Source of the DNA: Brevibacillus laterosporus LMG 15441
GTDB lineage: Bacteria; Bacillota; Bacilli; Brevibacillales; Brevibacillaceae
Length of the DNA stretch: 64,000 bases
Assembly (NCBI RefSeq): GCF_000219535.2
Contig: NZ_CP007806.1
Coordinates: forward strand, 1,770,501-1,834,500
Direction of reading: 5' to 3'
Below, piece after piece: positions 6,597 to 19,321 of this stretch (positions within the stretch are counted from its first letter, which is position 1; every line of letters begins with the position of its first letter). The notes under the pieces are model-generated. The model did no database searches and was not told where the DNA came from. It saw only the letters and a program-made list of their open reading frames with translations. The position numbers were made by a program, and so were the translations under genes.

Positions 6597-9500
6597 TCAT
6601 GCGCCTGTCCAAACATCCTTTACATATTGTTCATCCCGTTGAAGCTTATCGAGCCAAGCCTGGGCTTTTTCTTTGCTTACAGAATGAATTGTTTGATAGG
6701 ATGAAATCAGTGTGGCTTCTACATCAGGAGCCATTCGACTCCCATCCCCACATACATAAAGTCGAGCTCCCTGATCTAGAAGACGAATCAACTCTTGTTC
6801 ATTTTGTTTCATGAGATGCTGAACATAGGTTTTCGGCTGGCCCTCTACTCGTGAAAAAGCGGTATGAATGGTCACGATACCTTCTTTTTCATATTGCGCA
6901 AACTCTTCTTGATACAAGTAATCCTGTTGCGGATGGCGGGCACCAAAGTAAAGATGGGCTTCACCAAGCTGTTTTCCTTGTTGCTGATAGTGCTTTCGTG
7001 CCTGAAGAAATCCCCGGAATGGTGCAACCCCGGTACCTGGTCCGATCATGATAAGAGGTGTTTCTGTATTTGTAGGTAGCGTGAAGTGAGATTCTGGTGT
7101 GCGTACAAATATAACAACAGGATCATTTGGCTTTAGATCGGCTAGATAATTTGACGCAACACCTCGATACTCCCCATGTCCACTCCAGGCTGGGCCGCGG
7201 ACTACGCTCACCGTTATGCTAGTACGATCTGGCAAGAGATGAGGGGAGCTGGAAATGGAATAGTAACGAGCTTTTAAAGGTGGAAGAAGCTCTAAAAAGC
7301 GTTCGAAAGGTAATTCACAGGCAGGATACTGTTCCATAAGATTAAACATAGATATGCGTATATTCATTATATTGGTTTTGTAGGTATCCTCTTCAAGTAA
7401 GGCTTCCAATTCCCGTTTATGAGGTGGGCAGGTTGTATAAGCAGCAAGTTCACGTAGTTGAGCACGGGTTGCTGCTTCCTGTAATTCTACGCTATGACTT
7501 AGCAGATCATATACACTTACCGGACGATCCAGCGGAAGATGCGCTGCACTGCGTCCACTGCCACTAAGAATTAGATAATCGTTACCATTCAAACCAAACC
7601 GATGTACAATACGTTCCACTAGCTGAGGACAGTTTTTGGGCAGAACACCTAAATGATCCCCCTCGTGGTAATGGACTCCTGCTGGAATAGCTATCTCGAT
7701 ATGACGAGTGCTACGTTCGCTAGTTTCTCCCTGAAGCTCTCTATTCTCTGTAACGTACGAACGAAGAGCATCATAGGACTCAGCGAGTGGAACTCCCGCA
7801 ATTCCATTAACATATTGGACAGAAAGCGTGCTGCGCTCTCGCTCCCGATTTTCGTTGATCTTGAGCCCTAAAGCGTTCATGACACCAGGCCACAATTGAT
7901 GACGCCAATCCTCAAGTTGTTTCTCAAAATCTCCGCTAGCGTCACCCTCTCCCTGCTTCATTAGCCGTGTCGCACCTTTTGCTTCGAGCTGCTTATCAAT
8001 CAGGTGAGGAACCTGCTGGTATGTGCTGGCCCAATTATGGTCACCACATCCGAATACAGTATAGTTGACCCCTGTAAATTCTTCAGGCTCTGCTTCTTTT
8101 AGCCATTGTACAAAGTCTTTGGCATTACTCGGTGGTTTTCCGTTATAAGAGGAGGTAATAATAAATACGGCTCCTTCTTTGGGTAGCTTACCTAAATAAT
8201 CATTTAAAGGAGCAACCTCGCTCTTGAATCCTTGGAAACGTGCATCCTCTGCAAGTTCTCTTGCAATCCCCTCTGCAGTGCCAAGATTGGAACCATATAG
8301 CACTAGCAAGGGCGTATTATGTGCGTCAACGATGGTAGAGGCTGTTGGCTGCGCTTGTGTTTTTTCGCGTTCCTTCTCTTTTCCGGTAATTTGAAAGGAG
8401 AGTTCATTCGTGCGTAAACGGACACGCATGGAAAAGCCTTCAGGTTTTAAAGTTAGTGTTTCTTTAATTTTTAGCTGATAATGATTATGGTCAATGATGT
8501 CAAAGTACTTTAAAATCATACCAAGTACTAAGGTCGCCTCTTGAAGCGCGAATTGCTGTCCTATGCAGGCTCGCTGCCCGTTTCCAAATGGTTTATACGC
8601 ATCATAGGGGATTTGACTTGGGTCTTCAAAGCGCTCAGGGCGAAACTCCTCGACGTCATCTCCCCAGACGCTTGTATCCCGATGAAGAGTAGGAATGAGT
8701 ACATTGACACTTTCGCCTTTTTTCAAAGGATATTTTCCATCCAGCAGTGTGTCTTCCTTCGCGTAAAGAGAGAAGGCAGGAGCTGTTGGCCACAGACGAA
8801 GAGACTCATTCAAAATCATCGATATGTACGTAAGATTTCGCACTTCAGTATAAGTTGGAGTAGAACCAGTTAAGACACGGTCTACCTCTTCATATGCTTT
8901 TTGAAGCTTATCCGGGTTCTTTAATAGAAAGTATAAAGCAAAGGATAAGAGACCGCTTGTGGTTTCATGACCAGCAATTAAGAAAGTAATAATCTGATAG
9001 CGAATATTTTCGTCATCCAAGCCTTCGCCCGTTTGGGGGTCTTTTCCCTTTAGCATATGGGAAAGTAAATCGTTTGCATCATGATCCTCGTGCTCTTTAC
9101 GTTCTGCTATTATTTTATCCACAAGGGTAAACATGGCTTGTATATCATGTTTAAATTGACGTTTTGTAATAACCATCAATTTATCTTTAATTTCTAGGCG
9201 CTGTAGCTGGCTCATTGCTTCATCCAGCGCACGAACCATGCTGGTAATGAAGGGATGCGGTTGTTCTCGATAAAAGCTATTAAACCGATAATTAAAGCCG
9301 CACAACCCAATGGTATCCAAAGTAAGCCTTGTCATATCCTCAGGTACGTCAATGCTTTCATCCGGGTTAAGGCGCGCCCATTTCTGGATAAGCTGTACAG
9401 CAATGTCTACCATCATGGAATGGTACCCTTGCATGGCTCTTTGGCTAAAGCTTGGGAGCAGGATATTATGAGCTTTTTGCCAATTGGGCTCATCCGTTGA

Positions 9501-9785
9501 GCTAGTAAAAAGACCATCGCCTGCAAATGTTCTTACTTTTTGCAAGGGAGGCCATACATTCTTATCAAAACGGGATTCATCACAAGCCTCTGCTACCAAC
9601 TTATGATTGGAAATATAGATGCTAACACGGCCTCCAGGGTATTCCAGCCGGAAGATAGGACCAAGTTCATGGGCTAGCTTCATGATGGATTGAATTGGCA
9701 TCTCTGGATTGATTAAAGGTAAATTTCCAAGGGGACCAAAGGTTTTTGGTTGCGGAATGTTTTGTAAGTGAGAAATCGTAATCAA
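6597..9785 (-). CDS. Self-sufficient cytochrome P450/NADPH-P450 reductase (CYP102A, P450BM3-like)
   Basis: This soluble single-chain fatty-acid hydroxylase has 1062 residues, close to P450BM3. The P450 domain (about 1-465) shows I-helix AGHETTSG, the ExxR-type segment [11 protein letters not shown] and heme loop [15 protein letters not shown] with the axial Cys. Relative to BM3, the substrate-anchoring Arg47/Tyr51 (GGRVSIY) and Phe87 (GDGLFTS) are kept. A flavodoxin/FMN domain follows (about 490-640, [12 protein letters not shown]), then the FAD/NADPH reductase ([23 protein letters not shown]). It starts with TTG only 1 nt from AGAGAGG, so the true N-terminus is uncertain. No Bm3R1-like repressor gene is adjacent. 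Confidence 0.95.
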
Positions 9786-13230: not shown

Positions 13231-13269
13231 AAAAGAGGAGAGATCAGATGCTGGTCTCTCTTCTTTTTT
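13231..13269 (+). terminator. Terminator of the chemoreceptor gene
   Basis: AAAAGAGGAGAGATC pairs with GGTCTCTCTTCTTTTTT around AGATGCT. An ATG at 13248 that would extend the next ORF lies in this hairpin, which argues against it as a start. Confidence 0.75.
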
Positions 13270-13310
13270 CACCTTTTCATATACATTTTATTAGGAGGCA
13301 GGAGTTTATC

Positions 13311-16300
13311 ATGCACAATACACCAAGATACGAACCTATAACGTTCCCACTAGACAATAATCGCTTCGGTCAGATCACAGATACTGTGACTACAAGAAGC
13401 TCGTATGATTTGACTCCATATATGACAAAGTTATGGGAAAAGGGACAGGAAATTCATCTATTGGCTTTGTACATCATGTGGCTGCACAGAGTCAGCGGAA
13501 CCCAGCAGATTACATTGGGTACTCTTAGTCAGGAGAAATGGGTACCAGTAGCTATAAATGTTCAACAAGGAATGAACTATAATGATGTACTAGATCAGGT
13601 TGAAACAGCTTGGGAGCATGGAACAGAAGATGCTGATGCTTCTTATTCGTTCCATCAATTCCCAAGCACGTTTTGTCTGCAACAAGACTCACTCATGCAG
13701 ATTGAAGCACATACAGCTGCTCCCCTACATGCTGGGATCACCGTAAACAAAGCAAAAGCTAGCTGGGAAATGTATTATGATTCCAACAGCTTCCGTCAAC
13801 AGACAATTGATCGATTTATGGAACAAATGGAATGTTTAGCAGAACAAGCTGTGCTGCATCCGCAAACAAGCTTTACTGCTTATCCCATGCTATCTGAAAT
13901 GGAACAGAAACTGTATCAATCCATGAATCAGACGACAGAAGCATTTCCAGCAGAAAAGACGATTCTGGATGTCTTTCAAGAGATAGTAGAAGCGCATGGT
14001 GAGAGGCTTGCCTTACAGACTGATGAGACTAGGTATACGTATAAACAAGTAGATACAGCATCTAATCGGGTAGCTACAATGCTACAAGAGCATGGGATTA
14101 AGCCAGGGCAATATGTTTCTTTATTTATGGAACGAAGTATCGAAGCCAGCATAGCCGTACTTGGGATATTAAAAGCGGGCGCAGCTTATGTTCCATTAGA
14201 CCCGCATCATCCGCAAGAACGTAATGCCCATATTATTCAGGAAACGAATTCTCATGTAGTTCTTTCTAGTCTTGCCTATCGAGATTTAGTGGTACAAGCT
14301 ATTCCGAAAGCACAGGTCTTATGGATGGAAGACATTGAAATATATTCTGATACAGCGATAAAACCGGCTATTACGCCGTTGCATCCAGCCTATGTCATTT
14401 TTACCTCGGGGTCCACAGGAACGCCCAAGGGAGTTATTTTGCATCATCAGGGGGTAGTGAATTACGGGGTTGCTGTTAGAAAAATGATGAACGTAACAGA
14501 GCAGGATATCTTCACACAATTCATCACGTTTAGCTTTGATGCATCCGTTCATGAGTTATTTGGAGGCTTATTAAACGGCGTTACCTTACATTTTTTAACG
14601 AAAGAAGATAGAATGGATTCGATTTCGTTTGCAAGAGCAGTCAAGCGTGTAGGAGTTACGTGCATTCCCGGCATTCCTGCTGCCTTCTTTAACCAATTAG
14701 TTAAAACGTTGCCAAGCACAGAAGCAGACTGCTTCGCCACCGTAAAAAGCATAGGAGTAGGCGGAGAGCTTCTAGCAGGCGAGGTTGTTCGTTCCTTCCA
14801 GGCTAAATTTTCGAGTGATACGATCATTTACAATTTGTACGGGCCGACTGAATGCACCGTGACATCTACGTATCATGCTGTGACTAAACCAGTGAAAGCT
14901 GATACGACCAGCATCCCGATTGGAAAGCCTCTTGCAAACTATGAAATATATCTGGTTAACGAATCGTATCAACTGTGCCCGATTGGTGTTCCAGGAGAAA
15001 TTCTGATTAGCAGCGTAGGAATCTCGCACGGCTATCTGCACATGCCGGAGAAAACGAAGGAAGCCTTTATTTCAGACCCCTTCACACCAGGATCAGGAAA
15101 AATCTTTTATAAAACAGGTGACCTGGGACGCTTGCTAGAAGATGGAGAGGTAGAGTATTTAGAACGTAAAGATTTTCAGGTCAAAATTCGTGGGCATCGA
15201 ATTGAAATAGGAGAAATTGAGGAGCGATTAGCTACGTATCCTGAGATACAAAGCGTAACAGTTATTGTGAAAAAGGATCATGATAATCAGAATACATTGG
15301 TCGCTTTTTACACAACAAATACACAGCAGGAGATTGATCCGGCGCTTTTACAAGCTTTTTGCTCGCAGAAGCTGCCTCCTTACATGATTCCAGCACAATT
15401 TGGTTATCTACCGTCTATGCCTATTGCACCAACCGGTAAAATTGATCGAAAAAAGCTAGCTACTATTGAGCTAAAACCGGTGACAAGAACACAAACGTAT
15501 ATCGCGCCCAAAACGGAGGTTGAGCAGGAAATTGCCCGAGTATGGGAAATAGGATTAGGAATAGAGCGCGTAGGTGCAAATGATAATTTTTTTGAAATAG
15601 GAGGACATTCTCTTAAAATTATAGAGATATTAGTTGAAATAAAGCCAAAATATCCACTGCTAAAAATTAATGACTTCTTCACACATCCGACTGTCCAAGC
15701 ATTAGCGCATCGAATTGAAGAGCTGAGTCAGGAAGAGCAGAACACAGAACGCACTGATTCTGGGCTGATTGAGAGTAATCTACAAACAGAAGAAGTCCTT
15801 GCTGAATATCCAGAGCGTTTACAAACGACCAAAAAGGTTCTAAGACGCAATCAGCATACATTTTTACTAACGGGGGCGACAGGCTATCTTGGTTCTCATT
15901 TGTTAAATGAATTGCTGCAAACAGCATCGGGCACGATTTATTGCTTGGTACGTGGGGAAGATGTACAGAGTGCTACAGAACGTTTATATCAAAATTATTC
16001 CTTTTACTTTGGAGATAAGCTGAGTAGACAGCTTCATTCACGTGTGAGGGTGATGATAGGTGATTTGCAGGAAGTGCGCTTGGGATTAGGCAAAGAGGAT
16101 TGGCATGAGCTTGTTCAAAACATTGATGCCATCATGCACTGCGGAGCGGATGTAGCTCACTTTGGTGACTCTCAGCATTTCTATCGAGTAAATGTACAAA
16201 GCACGGAGACGTTACTTGATCTGGCCAGGGAAAAACAGGGTATTCATTTTCACTATGTTTCCACGATCGGTATTCCTGAAGAACTGTCTTATGCTGGGAA

Positions 16301-16985
16301 ATGGCACGCATTGCGCAATGCAGACCAAGTGGACTATTCCATTGTGCTAGACAATCATTATATCAATAGCAAATGGGAGTCAGAGAAGCTGGTGATGAGA
16401 GCTTTTGAACAGGAAGGTATACCAGTGACAATCTATCGTGCTGGTAATTTGAGTAGCCATTCGTTATCTGGTGCATTTCAACGAAACATGGAAACAAATG
16501 CGATGTATCGGATGTGTCGGGCGATGTTTTTGCTGGGAGTTGCCCCACATGCTGATTGGCTAGTAGACTTCACCCCTATTGATTTTGCAGGAAAGGCGAT
16601 TGCTAGCCTTGCATTACAAGAGGAAGCAGTCGGAGCCGTTTTCCATATTGTTAATCCAGAACAGATTCCGTATGTGGAGCTATTGAAGCATTTTCAGTCT
16701 TTTGGCTATCAGCTAAGTCTGGTTTCCCAACAAGAATATGAGCAATGGCTATTTGATGGAACGAAAAAAAATCGGGAAGGGATGGAGCTAGCTATTACGC
16801 AACTGGAGGGAGATGGCGCACGTAATTCGAATGTTCGATTTGCATGCCCTAAAACAACAGCCCTATTACAAAAGCTCCAGATTACATGCCCAACACCGAC
16901 GAAAACATATTTCCAGGCGATGGTGAGGCATGCAATAGAAAATGGATATTTCCCAATGCCAACACTTGCAGAGCCGATTTGCTAA
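13311..16985 (+). CDS. Single-module NRPS: truncated C, A, PCP and thioester reductase
   Basis: A stand-alone reductive NRPS of 1224 aa. Residues about 1-215 match only the C-terminal half of a condensation domain (LHRVSGTQQITLGT, LSEMEQ); the HHxxxDG half is missing. The adenylation domain (about 225-735) shows A3 FTSGSTGTPKG (364-374), A5 NLYGPTECT, A7 YKTGDLGR and A10 PTGKIDRKKL. The carrier domain has Ser767 in GGHSL. The reductase has GATGYLG (about 855) and a YINSK Tyr/Lys pair (1017/1021). It should activate an amino acid and release an aldehyde or alcohol reductively. The start at 13311 follows TTAGGAGGCAGG. No partner synthetase, PPTase or transporter is adjacent. Confidence 0.9.
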   Translation: MHNTPRYEPITFPLDNNRFGQITDTVTTRSSYDLTPYMTKLWEKGQEIHLLALYIMWLHRVSGTQQITLGTLSQEKWVPVAINVQQGMNYNDVLDQVETAWEHGTEDADASYSFHQFPSTFCLQQDSLMQIEAHTAAPLHAGITVNKAKASWEMYYDSNSFRQQTIDRFMEQMECLAEQAVLHPQTSFTAYPMLSEMEQKLYQSMNQTTEAFPAEKTILDVFQEIVEAHGERLALQTDETRYTYKQVDTASNRVATMLQEHGIKPGQYVSLFMERSIEASIAVLGILKAGAAYVPLDPHHPQERNAHIIQETNSHVVLSSLAYRDLVVQAIPKAQVLWMEDIEIYSDTAIKPAITPLHPAYVIFTSGSTGTPKGVILHHQGVVNYGVAVRKMMNVTEQDIFTQFITFSFDASVHELFGGLLNGVTLHFLTKEDRMDSISFARAVKRVGVTCIPGIPAAFFNQLVKTLPSTEADCFATVKSIGVGGELLAGEVVRSFQAKFSSDTIIYNLYGPTECTVTSTYHAVTKPVKADTTSIPIGKPLANYEIYLVNESYQLCPIGVPGEILISSVGISHGYLHMPEKTKEAFISDPFTPGSGKIFYKTGDLGRLLEDGEVEYLERKDFQVKIRGHRIEIGEIEERLATYPEIQSVTVIVKKDHDNQNTLVAFYTTNTQQEIDPALLQAFCSQKLPPYMIPAQFGYLPSMPIAPTGKIDRKKLATIELKPVTRTQTYIAPKTEVEQEIARVWEIGLGIERVGANDNFFEIGGHSLKIIEILVEIKPKYPLLKINDFFTHPTVQALAHRIEELSQEEQNTERTDSGLIESNLQTEEVLAEYPERLQTTKKVLRRNQHTFLLTGATGYLGSHLLNELLQTASGTIYCLVRGEDVQSATERLYQNYSFYFGDKLSRQLHSRVRVMIGDLQEVRLGLGKEDWHELVQNIDAIMHCGADVAHFGDSQHFYRVNVQSTETLLDLAREKQGIHFHYVSTIGIPEELSYAGKWHALRNADQVDYSIVLDNHYINSKWESEKLVMRAFEQEGIPVTIYRAGNLSSHSLSGAFQRNMETNAMYRMCRAMFLLGVAPHADWLVDFTPIDFAGKAIASLALQEEAVGAVFHIVNPEQIPYVELLKHFQSFGYQLSLVSQQEYEQWLFDGTKKNREGMELAITQLEGDGARNSNVRFACPKTTALLQKLQITCPTPTKTYFQAMVRHAIENGYFPMPTLAEPIC

Positions 16986-17107: not shown

Positions 17108-17785
17108 ATGGAATTAATTATTTTAGCAAAGTTGATGCTTTCTGCTTTCCTTGGAATCGTAATTGGAATTGAGCGTGAATTAAAACAGAAGCCACTAGGA
17201 TTAAAAACTAGCGTAATCATATCGGTTAGTAGCTGCTTACTGACGATTGTTTCGATTGAATCTGCCCAATTTTATGCGGAAACGTCTATGAACAATCGAA
17301 CAGATCCCATGCGTTTGGCTGCACAGATCGTTAGTGGAATCGGCTTTTTGGGTGCAGGGGTCATTTTGCGCCGAAATAATGATGTTATTTCTGGTCTAAC
17401 CACAGCTGCAATTATTTGGTCTAGTGCAGGGATTGGAATTGCGGTTGGCTCGGGCTTTTATTATGAGGCAGCGTTAGGAGCTGCGATGATTTTGTTCTCT
17501 GTACAGTTGCTTCCTTATTTAGTAAATATGATTGGGGTTCGAAAATTACAAGGAAAAGAATTAAAAATTCGCCTGTTCTTAGATGAGTATTCCCATATGA
17601 CAGGGATCATCCAGAAATTCAAAGAAGAAGATATGAAGATTAAGAATGTCTGGTTAAAGGATGTTGATAAGCACAGGGTACAGATGGATTTACGTCTAGT
17701 CGTGTACGATCATATTTACATTACTGATATTTATGAGATGGTCCATAATTTAAACGGGGTGGCACGTGTAGAGATTGACAGCTAG
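17108..17785 (+). CDS. MgtC/SapB family membrane protein
   Basis: The 225-aa protein has four to five predicted helices in the N-terminal 140 residues and the family signatures LGIVIGIERELKQKPLGLKTSV and RLAAQIVSGIGFLGAGVI (each read in part), then a soluble C-terminal ACT-like domain of about 75 residues (IRLFLDEYSHMTGIIQKF). Family members affect Mg2+ limitation responses and, in enterics, inhibit the F1Fo ATPase. No Mg2+ riboswitch is evident in the 120-bp upstream region. The start follows GGTTAGAGGTGG. It is probably transcribed on its own. Confidence 0.9.
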   Translation: MELIILAKLMLSAFLGIVIGIERELKQKPLGLKTSVIISVSSCLLTIVSIESAQFYAETSMNNRTDPMRLAAQIVSGIGFLGAGVILRRNNDVISGLTTAAIIWSSAGIGIAVGSGFYYEAALGAAMILFSVQLLPYLVNMIGVRKLQGKELKIRLFLDEYSHMTGIIQKFKEEDMKIKNVWLKDVDKHRVQMDLRLVVYDHIYITDIYEMVHNLNGVARVEIDS

Positions 17786-17860
17786 TGTGAGGTTACGTAT
17801 ACTGATTGATAAGTTTACAGGAATCTATACATGATCATAATGATAACACGCGCAATGATG

Positions 17861-18159
17861 AAGAGGAGTATGCAGGCAAGAATGCTTAAGAGAGCTGATG
17901 GTTGGTGAAAATCAGTGCGGGAAGCTTGCAGAATGGACTTTTGAGCGTCCAGACCGATAGTGTGAACGAAAACATGGTAACACACAGGTAGGCTCTGGCG
18001 GAGCGTCTCACCGATAGAAGAGACAGGTATTCGAGCAAAGGCATGGAGAGCTAGCACTTACTCCGATACAATTGAGCGCGCTGTGTAGACAGCGAATAAA
18101 GGTGGCACCACGGGTTTCTCGTCCTTATTTTATAAAGATAAGGATGGGAAGCCCTTTTT
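17861..18159 (+). promoter_or_regulatory. Tryptophan T-box riboswitch upstream of trpS
   Basis: A complete T-box leader: AGTA-type box GAGGAGTA (17863-17870), the stem I distal part, and specifier loop GAATGGA with Trp codon TGG at 17934-17936. The T-box core AAAGGTGGCACCACGG (18098-18113) has a TGGC bulge that complements the GCCA 3' end expected for tRNA-Trp. A terminator follows, GGGTTTCTCGTCCTTAT paired with ATAAGGATGGGAAGCCC, then TTTTT (18112-18159). Uncharged tRNA-Trp should favour the antiterminator and read-through into trpS. A minus-strand ORF over this region is a shadow. Confidence 0.93.
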
Positions 18160-18204
18160 GTATTTCTTGTAAACAAAATAGAGGTAATCAGGACAAGGAG
18201 CGTG

Positions 18205-18369
18205 ATGAGAATGGAAGATGGTTGGTGGTGGCTTTATCAACTGAATGAGATAAATAAACAGAGGGAGATCAATGCCTTTCATACCCCACGATCTCCGCTC
18301 TCAAAACGAAAGAGGCTGATTATCTATGAAAAATCAAAAACTGGTATCAGGTATCCGTTCTACTGGTGA
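18205..18369 (+). CDS. Putative Trp-codon leader peptide (uORF) of trpS
   Basis: Between the T-box terminator and trpS, an ORF starts at ATG 18205 (or in-frame ATG 18211) behind AAGGAG (18195-18200). It reads MRMEDGWWWLYQL in its first 13 codons, with three consecutive TGG codons at 18223-18231. It ends at TGA 18367-18369, 41 bp inside trpS in another frame, so its translation crosses the trpS ribosome binding site. The layout recalls the B. subtilis anti-TRAP operon, where a T-box is followed by a leader peptide with three Trp codons. A hairpin GGAGATC/GATCTCC lies at 18264-18296. Function is inferred. Confidence 0.6.
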   Translation: MRMEDGWWWLYQLNEINKQREINAFHTPRSPLSKRKRLIIYEKSKTGIRYPFYW

Positions 18370-19321
18370 ATTACATTTGGGTAACTATTATGGAGCAATG
18401 AAAGGCATTGAGAAGCTTGTAAACACATACGATGCTAATTTTTTTATAGCAGATTTGCATACATTGACCACACATCCTAGCCGCGAGCATATGTCTAAAA
18501 ATGCTCTAGAAGCTGCCGCCAGTTATTTGGCTGCAGGACTGAATCCTGAGCATTGTACGTTTTATACACAATCTTCTCTGTCAGCCGAGGTTGCGGAATT
18601 ATCCTTATATCTAGGAATGGTCATGCCTTTAGGTGAGCTGATGAGATGTCCAACCTTTAAAGAAAAAGCGAAGAAGCATCCTGATAATGTGAATTATGGT
18701 TTAGTGGGATACCCTGTACTGATGACAGCAGATATTCTGCTGCATAAAGGTGAAGTAGTGCCTGTTGGTGAAGATCAATTAGTGCATTTGGAGATGGCAC
18801 GGCAAATTGCTAGGCGTTTCAATAATAGGTATGGTGAGGTTTTTGCATACCCGCAACCGTTGGCAGAGAATGCTGTTCGTATTCCTGCACTACATGGTCA
18901 GGGTAAAATGAGTAAATCAGACGGAGTTGATACGTATATTAGTTTACAGGATGAGCAAAGCCAGATCGCTCAGAAAGTAAAAAAGGCATACTCTGATCCA
19001 ACTCGTCTCTATCTGCAACAACCAGGCCATCCGAGTGTACAAGGCTGTAATGTTTATCATCTGCACACATATTTTACGAATGAGCAGGGTCAACAGCAGC
19101 TTAGAGAGCAATGCTCCACGGCATCAATCGGGTGTGTAGCTTGTAAACAGCGACTAGCTGAAGAAATCGAACAAATTGTGGAGCCATTCCGTACCCGCAA
19201 ACAGCAACTTACAGAAGAACAAATAATCGATACCCTGCAACAGGGTGCCGAGAAAGCTCGGTTATCTGCACAAAAGGTTCTTCAAGAGGTAAGAAATGCC
19301 ATAGGAATTCTAATGGTGTAA
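18326..19321 (+). CDS. trpS: Tryptophanyl-tRNA synthetase
   Basis: This 331-aa class Ic synthetase charges tRNA-Trp. The HIGH-type motif is in TGELHLGNYYG (about residue 17) and the KMSKS loop in GQGKMSKSDG (about 193). Length and text fit the bacterial TrpRS family. It carries a C-terminal insert with three cysteines (EQCSTASIGCVACK), as seen in a subset of Firmicute TrpRS. The ATG at 18326 follows AAAGAGG (18309-18315). Expression should respond to Trp-tRNA charging through the T-box and perhaps through the overlapping Trp-rich uORF. Confidence 0.96.
   Translation: MKNQKLVSGIRSTGELHLGNYYGAMKGIEKLVNTYDANFFIADLHTLTTHPSREHMSKNALEAAASYLAAGLNPEHCTFYTQSSLSAEVAELSLYLGMVMPLGELMRCPTFKEKAKKHPDNVNYGLVGYPVLMTADILLHKGEVVPVGEDQLVHLEMARQIARRFNNRYGEVFAYPQPLAENAVRIPALHGQGKMSKSDGVDTYISLQDEQSQIAQKVKKAYSDPTRLYLQQPGHPSVQGCNVYHLHTYFTNEQGQQQLREQCSTASIGCVACKQRLAEEIEQIVEPFRTRKQQLTEEQIIDTLQQGAEKARLSAQKVLQEVRNAIGILMV

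Follow-up and report, generated by a model that had tools for sequence, protein, structure and literature searches.

The window that we analyzed is a stretch of 64,000 nt from Brevibacillus laterosporus LMG 15441, and our subject is the control region of one of its genes, a trpS gene for a tryptophanyl-tRNA synthetase (TrpRS). On the forward strand, the gene is preceded by a Trp T-box leader with its terminator, and then by a second element, an open reading frame (the leader ORF) with Trp codons close to its start, which runs across the ribosome-binding site and the start codon of trpS. The features are as follows.

17775-17803, +, putative promoter-like site TTGACA-17-TATACT, 5′ of the T-box (11/12 consensus matches)
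17846-18129, +, Trp T-box leader (RF00230; cmscan 111.6 bits, E 1.4e-25, Rfam gathering 93)
17934-17936, +, T-box specifier codon TGG (Trp), from the sequence and the RF00230 alignment
18112-18159, +, T-box terminator, a hairpin (18112-18154) with a 20-pair stem, then TTTTT
18195-18200, +, AAGGAG, ribosome-binding site of the leader ORF, 10 nt 5′ of the ATG at 18211 (orthologs are similar in layout)
18211-18369, +, leader ORF MEDGWWWLYQLN..., 52 codons, with a 44-nt overlap with trpS
18223-18231, +, three Trp codons (TGG TGG TGG), leader codons 5, 6, and 7, of which 5 and 6 are the conserved pair
18264-18296, +, arms GGAGATC (18264-18270) and GATCTCC (18290-18296), which may form a hairpin (Brevibacillus leaders only)
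18309-18315, +, AAAGAGG, probable trpS ribosome-binding site, within the leader ORF (from the sequence)
18326-19321, +, auxiliary (class A) tryptophanyl-tRNA synthetase gene trpS, 331 aa (TIGR00233, 282.2 bits, cut-off 176.75)

The RF00230 match is the sole Rfam match at gathering in the 64,000-nt window. Promoter-like sites of the quality of TTGACA-17-TATACT are frequent in this region, with 5 of them in 17700-18500 versus 1.9 expected. The Trp specifier TGG at 17934 and the AAGGAG at 18195-18200, both named in the original prediction, can be read directly in the sequence. The leader opens ATG GAA GAT GGT TGG TGG TGG (18211-18231). We picked the ATG at 18211 (MEDGWWW) by its match to the start position of other trpS leaders, and the upstream in-frame starts at 18202 and 18205 are also possible. 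The proposed ORF with three consecutive TGG codons (18223-18231) that crosses the trpS ribosome-binding site is present, and it does end out of frame inside trpS, after 44 nt with the stop counted and not after 41 bp. By position, a ribosome that completes the leader would cover the trpS initiation site, given that the ORF covers both the Shine-Dalgarno (SD) sequence and the start, with its stop at +44. Used as a search pattern, ATGNNNGAYGGNTGGTGG matches once in the window and not at all in 100 shuffles of it.

The string GATGGTTGGTG is found both at 17897-17907, in the Stem I region of the T-box, and at 18217-18227, in the leader ORF; it is missing from those class B T-boxes (defined below) that were read, and the repeat is probably a coincidence. 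Also near the gene are a P450-reductase fusion (6597-9785, reverse strand) and a protein with adenylation, carrier, and terminal reductase domains (13248-16985, forward strand).

Auxiliary trpS genes and their T-boxes

The genome has two trpS genes, one canonical, at C1:9062 (382 bits), and the copy in the window (282 bits), and their products are 35% identical. The gene had been correctly predicted to be trpS, and what has to be added is that it is a second, auxiliary copy. The canonical gene has no T-box at Rfam gathering.

We call class A the orthologs of the window trpS at at least 58% identity, and class B a sister family of auxiliary TrpRS. Class A is found in 3 of the 5 Brevibacillus genomes (3 of the 39 genomes of the family), and also, using patterns that reach close relatives only, in Tumebacillus, Paenibacillus koleovorans, Pseudalkalibacillus, Halalkalibacterium, and Tepidibacillus. 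An even draw of 398 Bacilli genomes has class A in 10, counting the window genome and one with broken copies, and class B in 27; class B is absent from all 8 genomes of the B. subtilis-type family in this sample (f15). All 13 searched genomes with a class A gene have a second trpS match over the cut-off. In a quick protein tree, the 12 class A and 27 class B rows form one clade apart from the canonical TrpRS (SH-aLRT 99). Duplicates were joined (L034, L035, L037, and L011 duplicate L012, L014, L017, and L004), and C_L058, on a short contig and with its orientation misread, was excluded from the protein tree.

In some lineages the backup gene decays. The class A trpS of Halalkalibacterium halodurans (L016) has an early in-frame TAG at residue 68, and the class A copies of G178 (L039 and L040) are broken pieces; the leaders of L016 and L040 are still recognisable. 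L039, the second copy, lacks its 5′ part and was dropped, and the broken gene L040 is included in the leader counts and kept out of the protein tree and the frame count.

A T-box at Rfam gathering precedes 12 of the 13 class A genes, the 13th being the broken L040, and 24 of the 27 class B genes. Among canonical trpS, 3 of the 15 examined have one, and in these three the stretch that was read has no DGWW leader ORF. At the same threshold, no T-box precedes any of the 15 more distant TrpRS loci (L018-L032). One class B locus, L103 (G013; also L085), has a T-box that apparently lacks the specifier region, with no Rfam match and with about 150 extra nt after the terminator, ahead of an intact DGWW leader. 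As this case indicates, the DGWW leader may persist without the T-box.

The sequences of the auxiliary enzymes offer a lead as to their role. The Gln of the motif SGxQPSG, found in 11/11 canonical TrpRS, is Arg in 12/12 class A and 27/27 class B proteins, and class B has Gln in 27/27 at a position where class A and the canonical enzymes have His. At the SGxQPSG Gln position, the 15 more distant TrpRS have Arg in 7, Gln in 7, and Lys in 1. Both positions matter for indolmycin binding in the Geobacillus TrpRS. Class A and class B could then be backup enzymes resistant to TrpRS inhibitors, the residue positions being only a lead in that direction.

Conservation of the leader ORF and of its frame

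Every upstream region, of which 13 distinct ones are class A and 27 are class B, has the leader ORF, including that of L113, whose leader has no stop before trpS. The original prediction was to be refuted by a lack of conservation of the Trp triplet or of the ORF frame in close relatives; leader and frame are both kept, also outside Brevibacillus, and the serial arrangement before trpS, a T-box first and a Trp leader ORF second, is confirmed.

All 40 leaders begin with M/V-x-D-G-W-W or a one-residue variant of it (3/40 are variants), and 37 have the exact x-D-G-W-W. Codon 1 is ATG in 30 and GTG in 10. Codon 3 encodes Asp in 39 and Glu in 1 (GAT 28, GAC 11, GAA 1), and codon 4 Gly in 39 and Cys in 1 (GGT 18, GGC 21, TGC 1). 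These two counts have to be read with the search pattern in mind, which for the codon counts fixed codon 3 as GAN, codon 4 as GGN or TGY, and codon 5 as TGG (a looser pattern was used elsewhere). We also note that the 39 Gly codons are GGT (18) or GGC (21) and never GGA or GGG. Codon 5 is TGG in 40/40, as fixed by a pattern that matched in every upstream region, and codon 6 is TGG in 39/40, the exception being L013 with W-R-W. Only some leaders have, like that of the window, a third Trp codon. Of the proposed Trp triplet sensor, then, the conserved TGG codons stand, and the conserved unit is the Trp pair at codons 5-6 and not the triplet.

The Asp and Gly codons differ at the wobble base, which points to a constraint at the amino-acid level. 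Over codons 2-6, pN/pS is 0.15 in frame versus 0.98 and 0.63 in the other two frames, for pairs that are not independent. Over the first 17 codons of close class B leaders, pN/pS is 0.58 in frame versus 0.89 and 0.96. The leader region of the three Brevibacillus genomes has pN 0.075 and pS 0.017 in the leader frame, that is, no purifying selection, and its lowest ratio (0.15) is in the third frame, that of neither the leader nor trpS, with changes too few to interpret. Past codon 6, the 37 leaders with an out-of-frame overlap with trpS continue for another 16-68 codons, and L115 and L116 for 6. The leader ORF has no Pfam match.

Searching the 398 Bacilli genomes with ATGNNNGAYGGNTGGTGG gives 50 places in 47 genomes, and 9 for the reversed pattern (hand count). 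Of these 50 places, 27 are behind a T-box and ahead of an auxiliary trpS or of rtpA, 15 of them among the 30 loci that were extracted and 12 matched by position to loci of the class A and class B surveys. The remaining 23 have no T-box core upstream.

The frame of the leader relative to trpS is also conserved. From leader start to trpS start there are 58-115 nt, and 36 of 39 leaders (L040 not counted) keep the same frame with respect to trpS. Mapped onto the TrpRS tree, the distance has changed in length at least 17 times and in frame 2 times; if any length were equally good, the probability of at least 15 of 17 length changes being in threes would be 4.5e-6. Some of these distances hinge on the choice of the trpS start codon, and with the trpS SD as the end point, located by a cruder finder, there are 18 length changes and 4 frame changes. 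In all 10 class A genes outside Brevibacillus, the leader stop (TAA or TAG) is at nt 6-8 of trpS, 8 nt inside the gene, and trpS residues 2 and 3, which are encoded there, vary across the 10 genes. The three Brevibacillus genes have no stop at nt 6-8, and the leader reads on to +44. In class B, 24/27 leaders extend 68-149 nt beyond the first aligned codon of trpS; of the other three, L115 and L116 end ahead of the trpS SD and L113 shares the trpS frame. Taken together, 37 of 40 leaders cross the trpS ribosome-binding site and start without fusion to trpS, and trpS mostly has a good SD of its own.

Kinship with the anti-TRAP gene rtpA

The pattern search also reached an rtpA locus (L078), in which a T-box is followed by MDDGWWCITDQ and then by rtpA. 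An anti-TRAP search in 80 genomes of the same family finds 27 genomes over the cut-off, and the leader begins M-x-[DES]-[GD]-W in 23 of the 24 T-box-bearing rtpA loci. Three anti-TRAP matches without a T-box core (L148, L150, and L151) are outside these 24, and a Rfam scan of 16 of the 24 matched in 16/16. As examples, the heads of the rtpA leaders are MYDGWWWHSR in L127 and MDDGWWCITDQ in L078 and L138, next to MEDGWWW for the trpS of the window. With three Trp codons in a row, the 10-codon leader of L127 agrees with RtpLP, for which three Trp codons are reported (PMC2311275).

The original prediction drew a parallel with the anti-TRAP operon of B. subtilis, and the T-boxes indicate that it is more than an analogy, with those of rtpA nested among those of class B trpS, in addition to the leader head that they have in common. 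In a DNA tree of the T-boxes (without L108 and L114, which have no regex core), 23 rtpA and 13 class B trpS T-boxes are together on a 36-row branch (98/95). Class B T-boxes as one clade without rtpA are rejected (AU p 0.0018). Leaving out L115 and L116, which are long rows, and L149, class B alone is again rejected (AU p 0.00016), and the class B and rtpA T-boxes make up one side of a branch (99/91). For class A T-boxes as one group, there is no rejection (p 0.27 and 0.21), and class A and the three canonical T-boxes are poorly resolved in this tree. The possible link of class A to rtpA lies in the shared leader head and in the single clade that class A and class B TrpRS form (SH-aLRT 99). The tree is not firmly rooted; in the simplest reading of it, the control region of rtpA probably came from a class B auxiliary trpS, and a transfer in the opposite direction is less likely.

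One rtpA locus is different. The T-box of L149 (G475), an rtpA from another genus, differs in type from the other 23 and branches elsewhere in the tree. A grouping of the 24 rtpA T-boxes is rejected (AU p 0.0004) because L149 stands apart, and is not rejected once L149 is removed (p 0.35). L149 has no DGWW leader; a short ORF (MKKG) with no Trp pair lies behind TGGAGG between its T-box and rtpA. The control region of L149 is possibly a separate acquisition.

Proposed stalling and occlusion, and the alternatives

The layout of the trpS loci is that of rtpA (yczA, anti-TRAP) of Bacillus subtilis: a T-box, a terminator, a leader ORF with its own SD and the M-x-[DES]-[GD]-W head, and then the gene. 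Both would respond to uncharged tRNA-Trp. According to PMC2311275, complete translation of the leader peptide RtpLP prevents RtpA translation, and PMC11255114 describes AT expression as regulated by tRNA-dependent ribosome stalling. The two systems differ in the gene downstream, which here is an auxiliary TrpRS and not anti-TRAP. They also differ in the leader: codons 5 and 6 both encode Trp in 39/40 trpS leaders versus 11/23 for rtpA, and one frame is kept in 36/39 trpS leaders whereas the rtpA leaders vary, some stopping before the rtpA SD.

By analogy with RtpLP, we infer that the control region is a tandem sensor of uncharged tRNA-Trp acting on both transcription and translation of a backup TrpRS gene, and we give this reading a probability of about 0.74. 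In the transcription step, uncharged tRNA-Trp would bind the T-box and RNA polymerase would pass the terminator. In the translation step, a ribosome would begin the leader ORF 58-115 nt ahead of the trpS start. With Trp-tRNA plentiful, it would pass codons 5-6 and cover the trpS SD and start, blocking trpS initiation. With Trp-tRNA short, it would stall at codon 5 or 6, leaving the trpS start free and keeping further ribosomes off the leader. Assuming a usual footprint, about 30 nt would stay uncovered between a ribosome stalled near the leader start and the trpS start codon, even in the shortest leader. The outcome would be that trpS is made only upon a real failure of tRNA-Trp charging. Stalling, occlusion, and the direction of the regulation are all carried over from RtpLP in this scheme.

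Some of the data do not sit well with occlusion. The leaders of L115 and L116 end before the trpS SD and that of L113 is in frame with trpS, the rtpA leaders have the same head but not the same frame, and the Brevibacillus leaders combine a lack of purifying selection in the leader frame with extra pairing potential. In addition, the 8-nt overlap of class A would equally suit translational coupling. Under coupling, the leader would be a positive element that brings ribosomes to the trpS start by reinitiation at overlapping stop and start codons, as the 8-nt overlap in 10/13 class A genes could suggest. We consider coupling unlikely. Stalling at the Trp codons would then turn off TrpRS exactly when charging fails, most trpS genes come with a good SD, and the leader stop is 44 nt inside trpS in 3/3 Brevibacillus genes and, in 24/27 class B genes, 68-149 nt beyond the first aligned codon, which is probably too far for ordinary reinitiation.

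A refolding of the RNA that depends on the position of the ribosome, hiding or freeing the trpS SD by the logic of classical attenuators, was part of the original prediction. Both of the pairings it named are present in the window, the arms GGAGATC/GATCTCC and the pair CTTTC (18276-18280) with GAAAG (18308-18312). Their conservation does not hold up, with the arms found only in Brevibacillus and the second pairing broken in L005, where the partner reads CTATC. And among the 63 leaders that we folded, the leader ORF regions of the trpS classes have no excess structure compared to shuffles, with a mean z of +0.30 for the 13 class A and +0.66 for the 27 class B. The computed accessibility of the class B SD barely shifts, from 0.53 to 0.58, when the region of the stalled ribosome is removed (this measure was used for class B only, its class A and rtpA means being undefined owing to misplaced gene starts). 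What there is for refolding comes from the three Brevibacillus sequences, close to one another and too few to judge by, where 18290-18305 can pair either with the leader start region or with GGAGATC at 18264-18270, and where z is -0.54 to -1.76 (-0.54 in the window), and from the rtpA leaders, with a mean z of -0.56 over 23 rows, several with a misplaced gene start (for example R_L128, R_L131, R_L135, and R_L139; that of A_L033 is also misplaced). Altogether refolding is quite improbable, and the lack of structure beyond chance favours occlusion over it. A classical transcription attenuator of the trpL type was also rejected. Only two terminator-like sites lie in 17700-18500, the one of the T-box (18112-18154) and a second, small one that overlaps with it, and there is none after the leader start up to 18500.

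That the leader ORF encodes a functional small protein and not a regulatory leader is very improbable. The MxDGWW head kept at the amino-acid level would fit such a protein, as would the pN/pS of the first 17 codons in close class B leaders (0.58 vs. 0.89 and 0.96), but past codon 6 both length and sequence are variable, the Brevibacillus leader frame has pN 0.075 versus pS 0.017, and no Pfam family matches. Finally, a chance ORF behind an ordinary T-box, an idea to which the three canonical trpS (of 15) with a T-box and no DGWW ORF in the stretch read lend something, is refuted by the conservation of the leader in 13/13 and 27/27 orthologous regions and by the 0 matches in 100 shuffles.

Other TrpRS genes help to place the tandem sensor. 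In Streptomyces coelicolor, trpRS1 is reportedly controlled by attenuation. A 2005 paper (PMC1262725) predicts a leader-peptide attenuator for trpS2 of S. avermitilis and has no aminoacyl-tRNA synthetase gene of Firmicutes under classical attenuation. The Bacilli genes studied here resemble the Streptomyces ones in being second TrpRS genes under a leader peptide with Trp codons; they differ in that the predicted Streptomyces attenuator is transcriptional and without a T-box, whereas here the T-box comes first and the leader would be translational. With the canonical trpS genes under T-box control they share the upstream Trp T-box, unlike the three canonical examples in having a leader ORF. In the literature searched, which is mostly that without subscription papers, we found no case of a T-box plus a leader peptide on trpS, which is no proof of absence, and there rtpA is the only case of tandem transcriptional and translational sensing of uncharged tRNA-Trp. 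The principle of a T-box in tandem with an RtpLP-type leader is known, and its gene context, an auxiliary trpS, is new.

In Bacilli, two sister families of auxiliary TrpRS consistently have this composite layout, and the control region of rtpA looks like an offshoot of one of them. The 40 trpS leaders provide a comparative set for asking why a single signal should have two stacked sensors. In Streptomyces, auxiliary TrpRS genes that confer indolmycin resistance are described (PMC9437257, PMC6804068), and a backup TrpRS silenced by two stacked sensors would fit that picture. Tentatively, and with more doubt than confidence, we suggest that the T-box plus MxDGWW leader may be an old device that holds an inhibitor-resistant backup TrpRS silent until tRNA-Trp charging collapses, that the anti-TRAP sensor may have been taken from such a gene, and that Asp-Gly may be part of the sensor, as a nascent-chain or start-proximal pausing element, and not spacing. 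The finding points to probable backup TrpRS enzymes in these Bacilli, for which the inducer may be, for example, antibiotics that inhibit TrpRS.
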